Shown here one piece after another: positions 5,749 through 21,798 of a stretch of 27,895 nt of DNA. How positions within the stretch are numbered: the stretch's first letter is position 1; every line of letters begins with the position of its first letter. The DNA is from a virus: the IMG/VR virus record IMGVR_UViG_3300009430_000006, positions 1-27,895 of that record. One strand, 5' to 3'. Under the pieces are notes generated by a model that was given only the letters and a program-made list of their open reading frames with translations, was not told the origin of the DNA and did not search any database. The position numbers and the translations under genes were made by a program.

Positions 5749-6408
5749 TTATCCTCTCATCCGATATGTAACGCGGCTGATAATGCCCACGCCGCTGTAA
5801 ACCCGTGCCGTTGTGATCATCGCCTCACGCGGGGCCGCGCGCATGCGCATCGAGACCCGCGAGACGAGGCCGATGCCGATATGCAGCGTGACGGGCGCAG
5901 GCGGCGCGATGATCTCGATGCCGATGGTTTGCGAGGCGCGCTGCGTATTGCGCACCATGCGTGTGATCTGGCGCTTGAGCCGGGGCGTCACGCCCAGGCC
6001 ATCCTCCGGGTAAACCGGGGCGTCGAGCGTCACCGAAACGCGGTGCGTGCCGGGCGCGGCGGGCGGGCTCGCCTGAAACCATTGCTGCCACGCCGTAACG
6101 CGGATGCCGAGCAGGCCAAGCCCGAAGCGCACGCCCCGGATATACCCGATCTCCTTGTGAAGATCGAAGCTCGCCTTGAGCATGGCGCGGATCGTGGCAT
6201 CCGGCAGGCCCGGCTCGATGAAGATATGCAGCCCGAACTCGCGGATCAGCAGCGGCAGGATGCTGGCGGGGGCAGCGTCGATCCGCTCATGCAGCGTCAG
6301 GCGGAAATCCGGTTCGGCCAGCGCCTGACGCGCCGTCTCGCCAAAAGCCACGCCGCGCGGATCACGGATCGATGCCGGGATGAGGGCCGGGGCGAACCTC
6401 ACGCTCAT
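5749..6408 (-). CDS. I: P2 gpI-like baseplate/tail protein
   Basis: The 219-residue protein resembles the phage tail protein I family (P2 gpI), which helps build the baseplate and connects to the tail fibre. The diagnostic stretch is PLLIREFGL...EPGLPDATIRAMLKASFDLHKEIGYIRGVRFGLGLLGI (about residues 52-105). Its ATG overlaps the stop of the J gene as ATGA, and gene order J-I-fibre is the same as in P2. The C-terminal 60 residues are Arg- and Met-rich and less conserved-looking. Confidence 0.85.
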   Translation of the reverse strand: MSVRFAPALIPASIRDPRGVAFGETARQALAEPDFRLTLHERIDAAPASILPLLIREFGLHIFIEPGLPDATIRAMLKASFDLHKEIGYIRGVRFGLGLLGIRVTAWQQWFQASPPAAPGTHRVSVTLDAPVYPEDGLGVTPRLKRQITRMVRNTQRASQTIGIEIIAPPAPVTLHIGIGLVSRVSMRMRAAPREAMITTARVYSGVGIISRVTYRMRG

Positions 6409-7538
6409 ATCAGCACCACCACGTTGACGGTGAGGCTGGTGAGGGCAAGAAACTCGTCCTCATCGAGCTGCGCGAAGTCCAGCCCGGTGATGGTGGCATT
6501 CACCACGCCGGTGAGCGCACGCACGCGGGCCTCAACGTCATGCGGGGCGATTTCCGGCGCGAGCCGCTGGCCCCATTCATTCAGGAGCGCCAGGGCGGCG
6601 GCGCGGGCATCATCGGCGATCGTGCTCGCCGCACCGCGCACCTGAAGCGTCAGAACCGGCGCAGCCGTAACGGCAACAGGGGGAAAAACCGTCACTTCAT
6701 CCCCGAAGCGATTTTCAAGCGCGCGTTCGGTGTTGAATTCCGCAAGCACGGCGGCGCGCAGATCCGGCCCGGCTGGCCCGCTCGCCGTGAGCGGGTAGAG
6801 ATTGATATGGCAGGGCTGTGGCCGCACCACGCCGCAATCCACCAGCGCGGACGAGGTGCCCATCGCGGTTTCGCGATACCAGGCATAGCCGCCACCGGAG
6901 GAGACGCGGTCAAACGCATTGGCGAGGCGGAGCCGATAGGCCTCGATCTCCTCGATCTCGGCCCCGCCCTCGCTGGTGGTGAGGTTTGCAACGCTCACGC
7001 CCTCGAATGGCTGTTCCAGCGTGTTGATCTGCCCCGGCAGGAGGCCGTTCGCGGCGCTGCCAGCCACAACGGCCTGCGCAGGCACATCGACGCCGAGCAA
7101 CCCGGCCCGGATCGTGGCGGCGCTGATCGTCTCGAACATCACCGCCTGCGTTCCGACCCGCGTTCCGGCCGGGATGTTGAAATTCGAGCCTGCCACGCCC
7201 GAAAGCGTGAAGCGCAGGGTGGTGAGCGCCTTCGCAGCAGGCAGGCGCTGGGTGGAACGGTTGACGCCGAGCCGCTCGATATGCCCCTCGGTCGCGAATG
7301 CCACGAAATGCTGTTCGGCGGTGGCCTGCGCCTCCTCGCCCAGCAACGCCATGGCATAGGCCAGAGCCTCGATCAGCAGCATCTCCACCTGCATCGGGTA
7401 GAGCGTGCGGCCCGATGCCGCCTCGAAAAACGCGACATAGCGCGCCTTGAGCACGCCCGCATCCCGCGTGAACAGGGCAGGCGGCGCGAGCGCCTTCAGC
7501 GTGTCGAGGCTGTAGGGGCCGGGATCATCACGCCGCAT
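6405..7538 (-). CDS. J: P2 gpJ-like baseplate wedge protein
   Basis: I chose the ATG at 7538 because GGGAGGG lies about 5 bases upstream; an in-frame start at 7568 would run into the REP element. The 377-residue product has the baseplate J-like features: a helical N-terminus with LIEALAYAMALLGEEAQA, FATEGHIERLGVNR (about 83-96), the IPAGTRV motif, and GGAEIEEIEAYRLRLANAF with SSGGGYAWY downstream. In P2 and T4 (gp6) this protein forms the wedge of the contractile-tail baseplate. It lies between W and I as in P2. Confidence 0.9.
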   Translation of the reverse strand: MRRDDPGPYSLDTLKALAPPALFTRDAGVLKARYVAFFEAASGRTLYPMQVEMLLIEALAYAMALLGEEAQATAEQHFVAFATEGHIERLGVNRSTQRLPAAKALTTLRFTLSGVAGSNFNIPAGTRVGTQAVMFETISAATIRAGLLGVDVPAQAVVAGSAANGLLPGQINTLEQPFEGVSVANLTTSEGGAEIEEIEAYRLRLANAFDRVSSGGGYAWYRETAMGTSSALVDCGVVRPQPCHINLYPLTASGPAGPDLRAAVLAEFNTERALENRFGDEVTVFPPVAVTAAPVLTLQVRGAASTIADDARAAALALLNEWGQRLAPEIAPHDVEARVRALTGVVNATITGLDFAQLDEDEFLALTSLTVNVVVLI

Positions 7539-10546: not shown

Positions 10547-13163
10547 TCAATACTTCAAACGGTTCTGGCGCGCGGTTTCGCGTTCGACAATTTTCGCGAT
10601 CTGCTGCCCGAGCTCGGGCAGAACGCTTTCAAGCTGGCTTTTGATATCGCCCGCAGCACCACCCGTCAGATTGACCGAGAAATTGACGGTGATGTTCGAG
10701 CCTTCCCCCCCCCGTTCCACCCGGTGAAGCGGCGCGCGCGGGCGAGCTGCCAAAACTCTGCGCAACGCCGGGGGCATCCGGCGCAGCCCCGGCATAAGCC
10801 ATGCCGGAACCGGGCAACGAGGCGGCAAGCCCGGCTGCCACCATGCGGGCGGCGGCAAAGGCGCGCGGCGCACCGGCTTCAATCGCCCCGGCGAGGGTTT
10901 GTGAAAACTGCACCTTGTCGAGATCGGAAAGCGGGCCGACCTTGGCGGGCGAATGCGGCAGGTGGTCGCGCATTTTCTGCACGGTTTGCGCAACAGCGGC
11001 AACGGCGCTTGCCGCCCCGGCGCGGATGCCAGCGGCCAGCGTTTCCATGAGGCGCACGCCATGGCTGTGAAAATCCTGCGCGGCGAGCACGGCATTGGCG
11101 GCGCTGGCCGCCTGCGTTGCTGCGGGCGGAATAGCATTGATCTGCTCATTGGCTTTGGTGGCCTGCGCGATTGTGGTCGTCACATCGACAGCTTTGGTTA
11201 CGGCAGGCTGCTCTGTGCCGCCGCCAAAGCCGAGCAAACCCTTTGCACCCTCGTAAACATTGGAGATGCGGGTAAAAACACGATCGATAAAATCTGTGAC
11301 CGGGGCGAAGGCAGAGGTCACCGCGCTGATCAGCGACGAGCCGAGATCGGCAAAAAAGCCGACAAACCCGTTAAAAGCGCCCTTGATCGCGTCAATCCCG
11401 GCCTGAATGCCGTTCGCAACACCATCCCATGCCGCCTTCATGGTCGATTTGATGCTCTCCCATGCCGCGCTTGTGGTGGTTTTGATGCCCTCCCACAAGC
11501 TCTCGAACATCGGGCCGAGCTTGTCCCAGTTGGTATAGATCAGCGCCGCCCCCACCGCGATGGCGGCAATCACCGCGCCGATCGGGTTGGCGATCATGGC
11601 AGCCCCCATGCCAATGAAGGCCCGTCCAGCTACCATGAATGCAACGCCTAGCGCTCGCAAAGCGGGTATTGCGGCGGCAGCCAATGATTTTATCTTTTTG
11701 CTCAAAAGCACAAACGAGAATGCGGAAATCAGTCTTAACTGCACGTAAAGATTACTTAATATCCAAGATAACCCACCTGCTTGGGCAATACCTATTTTAA
11801 TGCCAAGCCAAAAACTACGCATCAAGCCGCCAACGGCAACCAGAAAACGCACCGCTTTTATCAGACCAACGATAACTCCTGAAAGCTGCGCAATCCCACT
11901 GGCAAACACCAGCGCACTGAATTTCAGCGCCGCCATCACCACCATCAAGCCCGTGAAGGCCGCGAGCGCCGTCATGATGCCCGCCGTCAAATGCGGATGC
12001 GCCTCGATCAGCCTTGTCGCGATATTGAGCCATTCCGTCAGCTTTTCGATAAAAGCCCCGACAACCGGCGCAACCGCTGTGCCCAGGGCCAGCCAGAACC
12101 CCTCCATCGCCGTGCCGAGGGCTTTCTGCTTCTCGATTGTCAGCCCCATGCGGGTGAGGAAATCCTGATCAATAACACCTGTTGCGCCGCGTGCTTTTGC
12201 AAGAATATCCTCATATTTCTTGAAATCCTGCATCAAGGCGCGCGCGCCAGCCAGCGCCTGCTTGTCGCCAAAGATGTTCTGGAGTTTGGAAGCATCGCCC
12301 CCTGTCGCCTTGTTCAGAACCTCGTTCATCGTCTCGAAAACGCGCCCAGCTTTCTTGCCTTTTTCCATCACGGCGACAATATCAATGCCAAGCTCTTCAA
12401 ACGCTTTTTTTGTTGGCCCGAGCGTGATTTTGTTCATGAGATCTTCAAGCGCTACAACGGCGCTCTGATCCTGCCCCGTCTGTCCACGGATAACCTGCAG
12501 GACAGCGCCGATCTGCGCGGCGGCATCTGCGCCTTTCTGGCCCATTGCACCGAATTGCGCCGCGAGCTGGGGCAGATAATGCGCCATGCCCTTCAGCTCG
12601 AACTGGCCCTCCTTGCCGGATTGCGCCAGCGCATCGAGCGCCTTGGTCAATTCCGCACCAGGCGCAACGCCAAGGTTATTGATCAGGGCAACGGTTGTTT
12701 TCGAAAGGTCTTCCATTGAAGCCTTTGTCGCCACGGAAGCCTTGGCGATCAACTCGATCGATTGGCGGGCAGCTTCGAATTTCACCCCCCCCTCAACCAG
12801 CTTGTCCACGCCGGAGAGCAGCTCGACAGCGGTTTTATTGACGCTCGGGCCCAGCGCTTTCATCTCGTTGCCAAACGCAACCAGCTTTTGCCCTGTCAGC
12901 TCACCCTTGATGCCGACATCGGTCAGCTTGTCCTCGAACGTGGCAAAAACATTGGTTGCCTTGATCATCGGCCCGATAACGGCAGCCGCGCTCGCGGTGG
13001 CGTCAAACAGGTTGGCGCGCGCCCCGTCCTTGGCCTTGTTGATGCCCTCCTGCATTTTCGAGAGGCGGCCCAGGCCGTTTTCGAGGCGAATAATGCTTTT
13101 TTCGACGCCCTCGATCACGCGGGAGGCTTTGTCCACCGCTTCGAGGATCATCATCACTTTCAT
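10547..13163 (-). CDS. tail tape measure protein, C-terminal frame broken at a G9 tract
   Basis: The protein is about 871 residues once the frame is restored. Residues about 60-330 match the phage tape-measure core of the TP901 type (FATFEDKLTDVGIKGELTG, then ELLSGVDKLVEGGVKF). Several hydrophobic segments follow (about 390-560), as usual for tape measures, which fill the tail tube and enter the membrane at injection. In the first frame the C-terminus degenerates after GGTGGG into a 20-residue tail ending at 10629. One frame over, it continues as EGSNITVNFSVNLTGGAAGD...ARQNRLKY with stop at 10547. The switch is at nine G's on the minus strand (10705-10713): eight would give an open frame. AGGAGG lies just upstream of the ATG. 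The segment 11700-11820 is about 40% GC, unlike the rest. Confidence 0.9.
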
Positions 13164-13175
13164 GGCTGATCCTCC

Positions 13176-13331
13176 TTATTTTGCAGGCTTGCGTGCCGCC
13201 TTCGCGCGTGCCTCGTTCAGCTCGGCCTGCGCCTGATACCAGCCCATGAACTCCCGCGCCGAAAAGCGCATGAGCGTTGCAAAATCCCACCCCTCATTCA
13301 CCATGGCGCACACCATGGCGGGGGTGGCCAT
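13176..13331 (-). CDS. E': tail assembly chaperone E' (51 codons, frameshift partner of E)
   Basis: This frame encodes 51 residues starting MATPAMVCAMVNEGWDFAT, with W, F and helical pattern (FSAREFMGWYQAQAELNEARAKAARK) like the C-terminal half of P2 gpE+E'. Its ATG shares one base with the E stop (TGATG), and its stop overlaps the tape measure's ribosome binding site, exactly the lambda T / P2 E' position. It is in the -1 frame of E and open back to a TGA upstream of the GGGAAAC heptamer at 13337-13343. I therefore expect it mainly as the C-terminal part of an E-E' fusion of about 153 residues, with independent initiation also possible. Confidence 0.85.
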   Translation of the reverse strand: MATPAMVCAMVNEGWDFATLMRFSAREFMGWYQAQAELNEARAKAARKPAK

Positions 13332-13636
13332 CAGCCGTTTCCCGCCTCGTCCTCATCCTCACCGGCAAAAACCTTGCCCATCAGCGTGATGAAATCCGCG
13401 CCCTTCACCTGCTCCTGCAACTCGCCGACCGTCAGGGACTTGCCGTTGAACGTGCAGATGCGCTGGATGAGGTAAAGCTGGAAGCCGCCTGCGCCCGCGC
13501 CCTTTTTGGCAGCCCCGGCAGCGCCCTGCGCGGCAAGAACGTGCTGGATCGAATAATCCGGGTCGAACGACACCTCGATCTTCGAGCGCGGCAGCGTGAA
13601 GGTCACAAGATTGGGGGAAAGGGTTTTGTCGGCCAT
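13331..13636 (-). CDS. E: tail assembly chaperone E (P2 gpE / Mu gp41-like)
   Basis: The 101-residue protein has the tail-assembly-chaperone pattern of the Mu41/P2 gpE type: an N-terminal beta strand region (VTFTLPRSKIEVSFDPDYSIQHVL), an Ala/Gly-rich middle and helix-forming FQLYLIQRICTFNGKSLTVGELQEQVKGADFITLMGKVF, ending in an acidic tail. Such chaperones coat the tape measure protein before tube assembly. AGGAG lies six bases before the ATG. The last codons contain the slippery heptamer G GGA AAC in the correct phase for a -1 shift into E'. Position between tube and tape measure is canonical. Confidence 0.9.
   Translation of the reverse strand: MADKTLSPNLVTFTLPRSKIEVSFDPDYSIQHVLAAQGAAGAAKKGAGAGGFQLYLIQRICTFNGKSLTVGELQEQVKGADFITLMGKVFAGEDEDEAGNG
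13337..13343 (-). promoter_or_regulatory. -1 frameshift slippery heptamer GGGAAAC
   Basis: On the minus strand the E codons read GCG GGA AAC GGC TGA, so the heptamer G GGA AAC has the X XXY YYZ phase needed for tandem -1 slippage. After the slip the ribosome reads CGG CTG ATG GCC and stays open to the E' stop at 13176. Lambda uses the near-identical GGGAAAG at its G/T junction. A possible stem (CCATGG 13301-13306 with 13313-13318) lies downstream. Confidence 0.8.
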
Positions 13637-13697: not shown

Positions 13698-14213
13698 TTA
13701 CGACCAGACATCCTGGCCGCCGACGCGGGCAATATTGGCGAGCGGGGCGAACTCGAAGAGGTAGCCATCCGATTCCGTGCTTTTCATCGTCCAGTTGATG
13801 ATGGAGCATTCATGCTCGATGCCCATGCCCTCGCCGTTTTTGAAGGCGTCGAACGAGCTGGATTTGAACAGCAGCGAGACATTGGTGTTGAGCCTGTAGC
13901 TCTCGCCCGTCTCGAACCCCTCGGCCGAGAAAATATCGACGAACTGCTCGAACTGGAAATTCACCGCGCGGTTCGGCAGCAATGTGCGCAGCAGCAAATC
14001 GGTTTCGAGCCAGGCGAACGTGATGCTCGCATTGAGCGGCTCCATCGTGCGGCCCGGCAGGTCGATCTTGATCTTCATGCCGAGCGCTTCGTGGGAAACG
14101 GTCTCGTAGCCGATCTTGTCCGGGCCGAATTCCTTGATGCGCCCGACATGCCGGTTGCCCTCGAGGTAAACATCGGCATTCGTGGTTTGGCCGAGGCGGA
14201 TTTCGCGTGCCAT
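13698..14213 (-). CDS. FII: major tail tube protein (P2 FII-like)
   Basis: The 171-residue protein fits the contractile-tail tube family: DVYLEGNRHVGRIKEFGPDKIGYETVSHEALGMKIKIDLPGRTMEPLNASITF and a C-terminal MKSTESDGYLFEFAPLANIARVGGQDVWS. It would polymerise into the inner tube inside the sheath. P2 FII has 172 residues, so the length agrees. GGGAGAGAG precedes the ATG. It follows the sheath gene by 17 bp and precedes E, the P2 order. Confidence 0.9.
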   Translation of the reverse strand: MAREIRLGQTTNADVYLEGNRHVGRIKEFGPDKIGYETVSHEALGMKIKIDLPGRTMEPLNASITFAWLETDLLLRTLLPNRAVNFQFEQFVDIFSAEGFETGESYRLNTNVSLLFKSSSFDAFKNGEGMGIEHECSIINWTMKSTESDGYLFEFAPLANIARVGGQDVWS

Positions 14214-14230: not shown

Positions 14231-15529
14231 TTAATTGGCCAGCCCGAGCGCAGCGCGCACGAGGCCGAGATCGATGTAGCTTTCCACCGAAAGCCGCTCC
14301 ATGACGCCGATCGGCGCGCCGTCGAGGCGATACCAGAAGCGGCCTTCAAGGATTTCCTCCGGCGTGTTTTTCGCGCGGTTGAACCGGAAAACACCGCCGT
14401 AAAGCCAGCCGTCGCGCTCCTTGAGGTTGATGTAGCGCTGGATGGTCTCTTCGATGTAGTCGATCCGCTGCGGCGTGCCGCGCCGGTCGACATGCTGCAT
14501 GAGATAGAACTGGATGGCCTCGTGCAGCACGTCATACATCGCGCGCACATGCAACTTGCGGTGATAGCCCGCCGCCGCCGTGCCCTGCGAGGAAGCTTCA
14601 TTGCCCCAGGTGACCGTGCCGGTGCCGAACACGCCGTTATTGACGGTGACGATTCCGGCCTCGTTCAAAAAGTTGGTATCCGAGGAATAATCGCCCGGCG
14701 CGAAAAGCAGCGGGATTTCCGGGTTCGAGACATCCGCCATCGCGCGGTTCGAGGGCGAGGCGGAAGGCCCGCCGTCATCATCATTCTCCTCGCGGTTGAC
14801 GACCTCGTTCCACACCCCGGCAAAATGCGCCGAAAGCGGCTGCAGGCTCTGCCCGCCGGTCACGGCATCGAGCGCGAACACATGCGGCGCGCAGTAAACG
14901 AGGCGATCATCCCCCGCTGCATAATCCTGCCCGACGCCGCGCTTTGCCACGATCTGCTGCTTGGTGAGGCCGGGCGGCAGATCGGTGATGGCATGGCCCT
15001 TCACGCGGTTGGCAACGGCAAGCATTTTCTGCCGCACGCCCAGAAGCGTGCTGAAACCGGGGGCGATGATGCGGCGCGGGAAATACCCGAACTGCGAATA
15101 GGTGTAATAGGCCCCTTCCAGCCCCTTCGGCTGGCCGCTCGCGCCAAGCTCGCCGATGATATCGGTTGCAGTGAGGGCGGTGGGATTGGGCTGGCCGGAA
15201 ACGAGATGCGTTGCGGGGTTGAACACGTTGCGCACGATGATGGTGCCGATGCCCTTGCCCCTGTCCTTGTTGAACATGGCATGCAGCGTGGTATTGATGG
15301 AATAGGCCCCGCCACCGGCATCGAATTCACCGAAAGCGGCAACGGCATCCTCCTTGGTGCGGATGATGATGTCCTTCTCGATGTAGTTCGCGCGCGCTTC
15401 AGGGGTCGAATGAACAAGATGCACAGGGGCCGCCCCGACGAGATAGGTTGTCGCCGCCTTGACATCCCGCACGGTCGAGGTGCCAAGCTTGACCTCGATG
15501 ACTTCCGGGCCACGATGATAATTAGCCAT
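14231..15529 (-). CDS. FI: tail sheath protein (P2 FI-like)
   Basis: I chose the ATG at 15529 (MANYHRGPEVIEVKLG), which has AAGGA upstream and overlaps the preceding stop by 8 bases; an in-frame start 19 codons earlier has no support. The 432-residue protein has sheath-family features: an N-terminal strand used for handshake contacts (GPEVIEV), VGAAPVH, APGFSTLLGVRQKMLAVAN (about 170-190), and the C-terminal HVDRRGTPQRIDYIEETIQRYINLKERDGWLYGG...GRFWYRLDGAPIGVMERLSVESYIDLG. It forms the contractile outer sheath. Confidence 0.93.
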   Translation of the reverse strand: MANYHRGPEVIEVKLGTSTVRDVKAATTYLVGAAPVHLVHSTPEARANYIEKDIIIRTKEDAVAAFGEFDAGGGAYSINTTLHAMFNKDRGKGIGTIIVRNVFNPATHLVSGQPNPTALTATDIIGELGASGQPKGLEGAYYTYSQFGYFPRRIIAPGFSTLLGVRQKMLAVANRVKGHAITDLPPGLTKQQIVAKRGVGQDYAAGDDRLVYCAPHVFALDAVTGGQSLQPLSAHFAGVWNEVVNREENDDDGGPSASPSNRAMADVSNPEIPLLFAPGDYSSDTNFLNEAGIVTVNNGVFGTGTVTWGNEASSQGTAAAGYHRKLHVRAMYDVLHEAIQFYLMQHVDRRGTPQRIDYIEETIQRYINLKERDGWLYGGVFRFNRAKNTPEEILEGRFWYRLDGAPIGVMERLSVESYIDLGLVRAALGLAN

Positions 15530-20482: not shown

Positions 20483-20513
20483 AAAGCGGTGGGTCGCCCC
20501 AGCCGCTTTTTTT
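20483..20513 (+). terminator. intrinsic terminator oriented on the plus strand
   Basis: AAAGCGG-TGGG (20483-20493) pairs with CCCA-G-CCGCTTT (20498-20509) with one bulge around a TCGC loop, and seven T's end at 20513. The T-run is on the plus strand, opposite to all genes here. It would stop antisense transcription. On the minus strand the hairpin forms just after the minor head gene stop but without a T-tail. Confidence 0.6.
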
Positions 20514-21798
20514 ATTGCTTCCGCCGATAAAGCAAAGCGCCGTTCCTGTATTTTTCGAGATATTCCGGATCCGGGGTCTTTGTGCCCCGTTCTGTAGGCT
20601 GGAAGATGGTTGACCCTTCCCAGCCATCACTTGACCATGCAAACGATGAAAAACCTAACCCATCTGGCGTTGAGCGAATATAACGGCGCACCAGGCGGAA
20701 TTTTTGATTGAAATATTGCCAGTCGATCCAGATCTCGTCCGGGTCTTGCAAGGCTTCGGCGAGGCGCAGCATGTCGCGTTCCCGCCCCTGCTTGCCGCCC
20801 TTGAACCGGCCCTGCCCGTCGGTAAAAAGGTCGTTGGATATCGGGATGGCGTGGCCGGAGGCATCCCGGAACAGCACGGATTTTTCAGGCGTGGCGCCGA
20901 ATTGCTGCAAGAAGGCTTGCGCCGCCGCTTTGGCATCGGTATCGGCGGGCAGGCGCGCCGAACGGAACGGGCGTGCAATATCCTTCAGGGGCGGAAGCGG
21001 CGCGGATGGCAGGCGCGGGCCGATCGGCGGCTCGAGCGGTTTCTGCAATTCGCGCGGCACCAGCCCTTTGGCCCAGCTTTGCCCCGGCGCATGATCCCAG
21101 CCGAAATCGATCCCGTTCGGCACCTGCACCTTGTCGCCCGTTTTCGGGTCGATGACGGTGCGGGTGGTGACGGGCGGAGATCGGGAGGGTTCAAGGCCCT
21201 CCGCCTTCAGTTCCCTGTCTGTCATGGTTTCGACGCCGCAGGAGCAGTTCCAGCCATTCGGCGGGTAATGCGTGTCCCACCATTGATCATCCCAGGCGAG
21301 AATGGTGCCGTTGAACACATCACGGTGTTCGGGCCGCGCGCGCTCCGGCTCGCGGTAATAGGCATGGCGATAGCGCCACCATTTATAGACCTTGACCACA
21401 TCCGGGTCTGTCATCTGCTTGTAGCGCCCGGCGGCGTAAGCGGTGCGCAGGTTCGTTTCATAAATCACCCGCGCGCGCCAGGCGCGCCCGGCTTCGGTTC
21501 CCTCGCCCGTCCAGCCCGTCCAGCCATGCTTCGCCACGATCTCGTCAAAGCTCTGGCGAAAATCGGCAAGTGTCGTTTTCCCCGCCACAGCCTTTTCGAT
21601 CTCGGCCTTGAAATCCGCGAGCAAGGCATCCTTCATCGCGCCTGCGACCACGAAACCGCGATCATGCGCGCGGCCTTCGATATCGCGCCACGTTTTGCTT
21701 GGCAGCGCGATTTTCTGCTTCAGGAAATCAATCGCTTCCTGAAACTGCACCGTAAATTCGGGTGGCTCGGCAAAGAGCAGAGGAGCATCTGCGCTCAT
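20512..21798 (-). CDS. F: minor head protein (Mu F-like) with C-terminal PBECR2-type nuclease domain
   Basis: Residues about 1-210 of this 428-residue protein match the Mu F-like minor head family: EAIDFLKQKIALPSKTW, YETNLRTAYAAGRYKQM, RPEHRDVFNGTILAWDDQWWDTHYPPNGWNCSCGVETM. The last 140 residues are an added domain: LPADTDAKAAAQAFLQQFG, EKSVLFRDASGHAIPISNDLF, ALQDPDEIWIDW and YLEKYRNGALLYRRK. This is the pattern of the phage-barnase-EndoU-type (PBECR2) nuclease domains that occur on MuF proteins, which may enter the host with the DNA. The assignment is by motif memory. No immunity gene is visible next to it. ATGA coupling joins it to the portal gene. Confidence 0.88.
   Translation of the reverse strand: MSADAPLLFAEPPEFTVQFQEAIDFLKQKIALPSKTWRDIEGRAHDRGFVVAGAMKDALLADFKAEIEKAVAGKTTLADFRQSFDEIVAKHGWTGWTGEGTEAGRAWRARVIYETNLRTAYAAGRYKQMTDPDVVKVYKWWRYRHAYYREPERARPEHRDVFNGTILAWDDQWWDTHYPPNGWNCSCGVETMTDRELKAEGLEPSRSPPVTTRTVIDPKTGDKVQVPNGIDFGWDHAPGQSWAKGLVPRELQKPLEPPIGPRLPSAPLPPLKDIARPFRSARLPADTDAKAAAQAFLQQFGATPEKSVLFRDASGHAIPISNDLFTDGQGRFKGGKQGRERDMLRLAEALQDPDEIWIDWQYFNQKFRLVRRYIRSTPDGLGFSSFAWSSDGWEGSTIFQPTERGTKTPDPEYLEKYRNGALLYRRKQ

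Follow-up and report, generated by a model that had tools for sequence, protein, structure and literature searches.

A candidate −1 programmed ribosomal frameshift at G_GGA_AAC joining a putative tail assembly chaperone pair in an unannotated, mainly alphaproteobacterial phage family

A −1 frameshift in the expression of tail assembly chaperones is common among tailed phages, and such sites are said to form a class of the type set out by Xu, Hendrix and Duda in 2004. One known example is lambda gpG/gpGT, in which the tape measure gene is immediately preceded by a small gene that carries an in-phase heptamer (G_GGA_AAG) near its end and is extended in the −1 frame. The ratio of gpG to gpGT is ∼30:1, and the tail tube protein is bound by the extension, which may recruit it to the tape measure (PMC5009743). 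Phage P2 makes gpE and gpE+E′ at T_TTT_TTG, also by a −1 extension, within the gene order FI-FII-E-E′-T. Mu shifts by −2 at the chaperone position (PMC5009743). GGGAAAC is the slippery site reported for the tape measure chaperone of Caulobacter phage Colossus (PMC3556154) and for the haloarchaeal virus HCTV-1 (PMC5009743).

The locus described here lies in a window of 27,895 bases, the whole stretch of a virus record that was analysed. It encodes a Mu-like head, with members of the Mu portal and Mu F families, and on its − strand a contractile tail module with sheath, FII-type tube and GpU. Between the tube gene and the tape measure gene lie two overlapping frames (13636-13176), giving the order tube, E, E′, tape measure, and relatives are arranged alike. 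The features are as follows.

14231..15529, − strand: tail sheath protein, FI-like (phrog_23, 1.6e-49; PF04984, 3.9e-06, sub-threshold)
13698..14213, − strand: tail tube protein, FII-like, the upstream neighbour of E (PF04985, 3.6e-15)
13331..13636, − strand: E, putative upstream tail assembly chaperone in the position of lambda gpG or P2 gpE (101 aa, stop TGA)
13337..13343, − strand: slippery heptamer G_GGA_AAC, candidate −1 programmed frameshift site
13176..13337, − strand: E′ as it would be fused after the slip, −1 frame (53 aa from RLMATP..., stop TAA)
13176..13331, − strand: E′ reading frame counted from the ATG that it has itself (51 codons and TAA), from which free E′ could be made by re-initiation
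13287..13327, − strand: predicted hairpin, a possible stimulator, starting 9 nt downstream of the heptamer
10629..13163, − strand: tail tape measure protein, on which the chaperones presumably act (PF10145, 1e-20; phrog_28, 1.2e-61)

Two other genes of the window have features of their own. The tape measure frame is broken at a nine-G run (10705-10713, − strand), and the conserved C-terminus of the protein (SNITVNFSVNLTGG...RQNRLKY) continues in another frame, down to 10547. Since a C-terminus of the same kind stays in one frame in relatives, the break is probably an assembly indel. At 20512-21798 (− strand) the Mu F domain of a Mu F-like protein is followed, at the C-terminus, by a PBECR2 nuclease-like domain (PF18810, 6e-31).

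The first-pass annotation had placed GGGAAAC in exact phase in the last codons of E, ahead of a 51-codon E′ in the −1 frame, and had proposed the junction DEAGN-RLMATP; all of this, the coordinates included, was borne out when the frames were read. E, with AGGAG upstream of its ATG, ends in GAG GCG GGA AAC GGC TGA, where the heptamer (13343-13337, − strand) is divided as G_GGA_AAC three codons before the stop, the phase on which re-pairing of the P- and A-site tRNAs with GGG AAA depends. The E′ frame is −1 relative to that of E, and its ATG shares bases with the stop of E (TGATG) and lies 12 nt past the heptamer's first base. Reading after a −1 slip gives ...DEAGN-RLMATPAMV.... A −1 shift can reach E′ within a stretch of 7 codons that holds a single X_XXY_YYZ heptamer, and in the +1 frame a stop comes 12 codons past that of E. 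On both strands of the window together GGGAAAC occurs 4 times against 3.7 expected, which is chance level, and relatives were therefore needed to judge its significance.

E alone as a query yielded no relatives in viral contigs or phage records. We therefore turned to the sheath and the tube of the tail and used them as baits to fetch relatives from viral contigs and genomes. A hidden Markov model of E then defined 33 distinct E loci between tail tube and tape measure genes; clusters below 70% E identity (n=21) served as divergent sets. The relatives that bear organism names are alphaproteobacterial (Rhodoblastus, Rhizobium, Agrobacterium, Allorhizobium, Phyllobacterium, Hoeflea, Loktanella, Marinosulfonomonas and a few less precisely named bins), and Rhizobium phage RR1-B is a relative from the phage collection.

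These loci showed an in-phase X_XXY_YYZ heptamer 2–11 codons before the E stop in 31 of 33 cases (17 GGGAAAC, 12 GGGAAAG, 1 CCCAAAC and 1 CCCTTTG), with E′ in the −1 frame in every one of the 31. Synonymous resampling with each locus's own codon usage predicts such heptamers in the last 13 codons of 1.5 of the 33 loci, as against the 31 seen, and the background in long genes of the same loci is 98 of 4530 13-codon windows (2.2%). The same search recovered TTTTTTG from the positive controls, five P2-type phages and Wolbachia WO. Although the heptamer varies in sequence between relatives, it remains slippery, and all 29 GGGAAA-type loci spell its glycine as GGA, a codon that accounts for only ∼3–15% of the glycine codons nearby. 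The codons open to a working −1 shift, bounded by the −1-frame stops and the E stop, number a median of 11.5, and the heptamer falls inside them in all loci except L012.

L014, a Rhodoblastus MAG prophage, was considered as an exception and dismissed: its frame is broken inside E (about 7150-7201), probably by a sequencing indel, just upstream of an intact GGGAAAC, where it reads GAG GGA AAC TGA with E′ intact in the −1 frame. With L014 counted, 32 of 33 loci combine E′ in −1 with an in-phase slippery heptamer. Relatives that keep E′ and have lost the heptamer, the case that the first-pass annotation had singled out as damaging to its proposal, come down to L012, and the proposal stands up to this check. 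L012 is the sole relative without a canonical heptamer; in it E ends GAG GGG GAG TAA (5872-5920; GAGGGGGAGTAA) and E′ is conserved in −1. True loss, a non-canonical site and a G-run error are the candidates for this unexplained exception.

If the heptamer and the overlap had come about by chance, and E′ were a decayed or non-coding frame, the GGGAAAC count of the window would be as expected, which it is. The comparative data nevertheless refute this explanation, to which we give next to no probability: the heptamer is present in 20 of the 21 divergent clusters and E′ is conserved as protein. Across the family the site, in phase just short of where E ends, is conserved beyond chance; in the window alone the heptamer count is not significant. 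A fusion produced by transcriptional slippage, or made to appear by an assembly indel, might draw support from the apparent indel elsewhere in the window, at the nine-G run of the tape measure gene. Transcriptional slippage requires runs of ∼8 or more, however, whereas GGGAAAC has no long homopolymer, and the arrangement recurs in assemblies that have nothing to do with one another, isolate genomes and phage RR1-B among them, such that this origin too is of negligible likelihood.

The E′ frame is open in all relatives examined and encodes a core of the form (M/L)VxxGW...L.AM...(E/D)F.FW. The stretch between heptamer and core is itself conserved as protein in the −1 frame, as LSxPxQHxF in the rhizobial group and WPSxxAVVAMV in the other, and the conserved sequence of E′ extends upstream of the common internal methionine. 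In most loci no start codon is found other than at position −4 of the GW core or close to it, already within conserved E′ sequence. In L015, L016 and L026 the E′ frame lacks ATG, GTG and TTG altogether ahead of its core, and for this reason E′ in these three relatives seems reachable solely as a fusion. Because starts are absent and the upstream stretch of E′ is conserved as protein, we infer that the product shared by the family is the E–E′ fusion.

It had been suggested, from the TGATG-coupled ATG, that both a fusion and a free E′ could be made. The coupled ATG is there in the window, but free E′ does not hold as a family trait, no other locus having an ATG at the E stop; it would be a possible peculiarity of the window phage. 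The view that E′ is altogether a small protein in its own right, started at the window ATG through termination-reinitiation on TGATG, with the heptamer incidental, could appeal to the TGATG overlap, to further in-frame ATGs in the window and to a predicted domain that is complete when started at the window ATG. The three loci without any start and the restriction of the coupled ATG to the window speak against it, and as it also leaves the conservation of the heptamer unexplained we judge it highly improbable. A frameshift fusion accompanied, in the window phage only, by some free E′ from the coupled ATG deserves more weight, although we still think it unlikely: the overlap is compatible with re-initiation, but the coupled ATG is not conserved and the nearest GAGG lies ∼17 nt upstream of it, too far for a normal ribosome-binding site.

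Stimulatory elements were sought on both sides of the heptamer. The RNA of 13343-13270 has a predicted folding energy of −32.9 kcal/mol (z −2.33), and 3 of 200 shuffles were as stable. Across the family the mean z at the site is ∼−1.0, not better than at several other offsets, and since stability does not peak at the site we claim no conserved stimulatory structure; the predicted hairpin would at most be local to the window phage. Ahead of the heptamer, Shine-Dalgarno-like stimulators occur in some loci and not in others. The motif itself is weak in Escherichia coli, where re-pairing of the A-site tRNA from AAC to AAA is near-cognate and the best motifs permit cognate A-site re-pairing, although G_GGA_AAC is among the commoner motifs of insertion sequence elements thought to use frameshifting (PMC4066793). 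Motif weakness is no strong objection here, because a chaperone pair needs a low rate of shifting.

The proteins gave little purchase for homology searches. Neither E nor E′ of the window reached a Pfam or PHROG family, the E′ listing being limited to HTH_39 at chance level (E 0.14), and NCBIfam returned chance matches only. PF23857 (Phage_TAC_19) matched 6 of 29 E relatives weakly (best E 0.0093) and the window E not at all. Structure searches found nothing at E ≤ 0.001 for E (PDB, BFVD) or E′ (BFVD); a few weak BFVD hits of E carry a tail assembly chaperone annotation, which is suggestive only. The AlphaFold2 model of E is moderate (mean pLDDT 76), and that of E′ consists of three helices (mean pLDDT 92.7), the first beginning at residue 6 after the slip. 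The chaperone role and the names E and E′ are thus drawn from position and expression logic and not from homology. The naming after P2 proposed by the first-pass annotation is apt for position and arrangement and does not extend to homology, as comparison of P2-type E with the family E by hhalign gave a probability of 0.3% and GpE models do not match E′.

Set against the described systems, the locus has the arrangement and −1 extension of both lambda G/T and P2 E/E′, which had been offered as analogues of the frameshift and serve well as such. The lambda heptamer GGGAAAG recurs identically in 12 relatives of the window E; the window phage, by contrast, is contractile-tailed and has GGGAAAC, and the family models show no protein homology to the lambda pair. 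P2 shares the gene order and differs in its heptamer. Colossus, a phage of an alphaproteobacterium, has the same GGGAAAC but is a large siphophage. The annotated homologue examined is that of Rhizobium phage RR1-B, whose RHYG_00038 and RHYG_00039 (L013, 5722-6224) are direct homologues of E and E′ with GGGAAAG and E′ in −1, but were deposited as two separate hypothetical proteins with no frameshift annotated, the E′ coding sequence starting at TTG. That E′ was annotated as a separate coding sequence corrects in a small point the earlier view that E′ is too short for the usual gene finders, which need not miss it.

Mu resembles the window in its head genes and in having a chaperone gene before the tape measure gene, and differs in that its extension is −2 whereas that of the window E family is −1 in all loci. 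Three gammaproteobacterial relatives by sheath (L055–L057: Pseudomonas phages Komp_PAO1_1 and Bise, and Escherichia Phi06_2974 B) have an E′-like extension in the +1/−2 frame and no X_XXY_YYZ heptamer; in L055 and L056 this extension is without a frameshift annotation. Profile comparison of the family E with these three Mu-like E proteins gave a probability of 1.1%. The direction of the shift thus differs between lineages with related sheaths, perhaps through a switch, perhaps through a replacement of the chaperone genes, no homology between the E proteins having been detected. That, in contrast to E. coli, the 'mammalian-like' G_GGA_AAC shifts efficiently in these mainly alphaproteobacterial phages owing to a different ribosome or tRNA set of the host, and that the lineage switched from a Mu-like −2 to a −1 shift, is a speculation that we hold to be doubtful.

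We consider it very probable that E and E′ are a tail assembly chaperone pair made by −1 programmed ribosomal frameshifting, a reading that draws on the reading frames, the phase of the heptamer, its conservation across the family and the absence of alternative starts in several relatives. Most ribosomes would terminate at the TGA of E and give E by itself. The remaining minority would slip back by one base, tRNA-Gly on GGA and tRNA-Asn on AAC moving to GGG AAA, and would continue as RLMATP... past the E stop to yield an E–E′ fusion of ∼153 residues. If the lambda pair gpG/gpGT is a guide, many copies of E and few of E–E′ would coat the tape measure protein, with the three-helix domain of E′ recruiting the tail tube subunit. 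The slip, its rate and the chaperone role are inferred from these patterns in sequence and from the analogy.

In conclusion, the locus represents a new phage family, mainly alphaproteobacterial and not annotated before, that uses a known mechanism rather than a new one. It extends the conserved tail-assembly frameshift by a well-supported tail chaperone family that current protein models fail to see, and the one annotated homologue examined had been deposited as two hypothetical genes. Related phages of this family also provide a natural set of G_GGA_AAC and G_GGA_AAG sites, useful for testing A_AAC shift sites on bacterial ribosomes outside E. coli.
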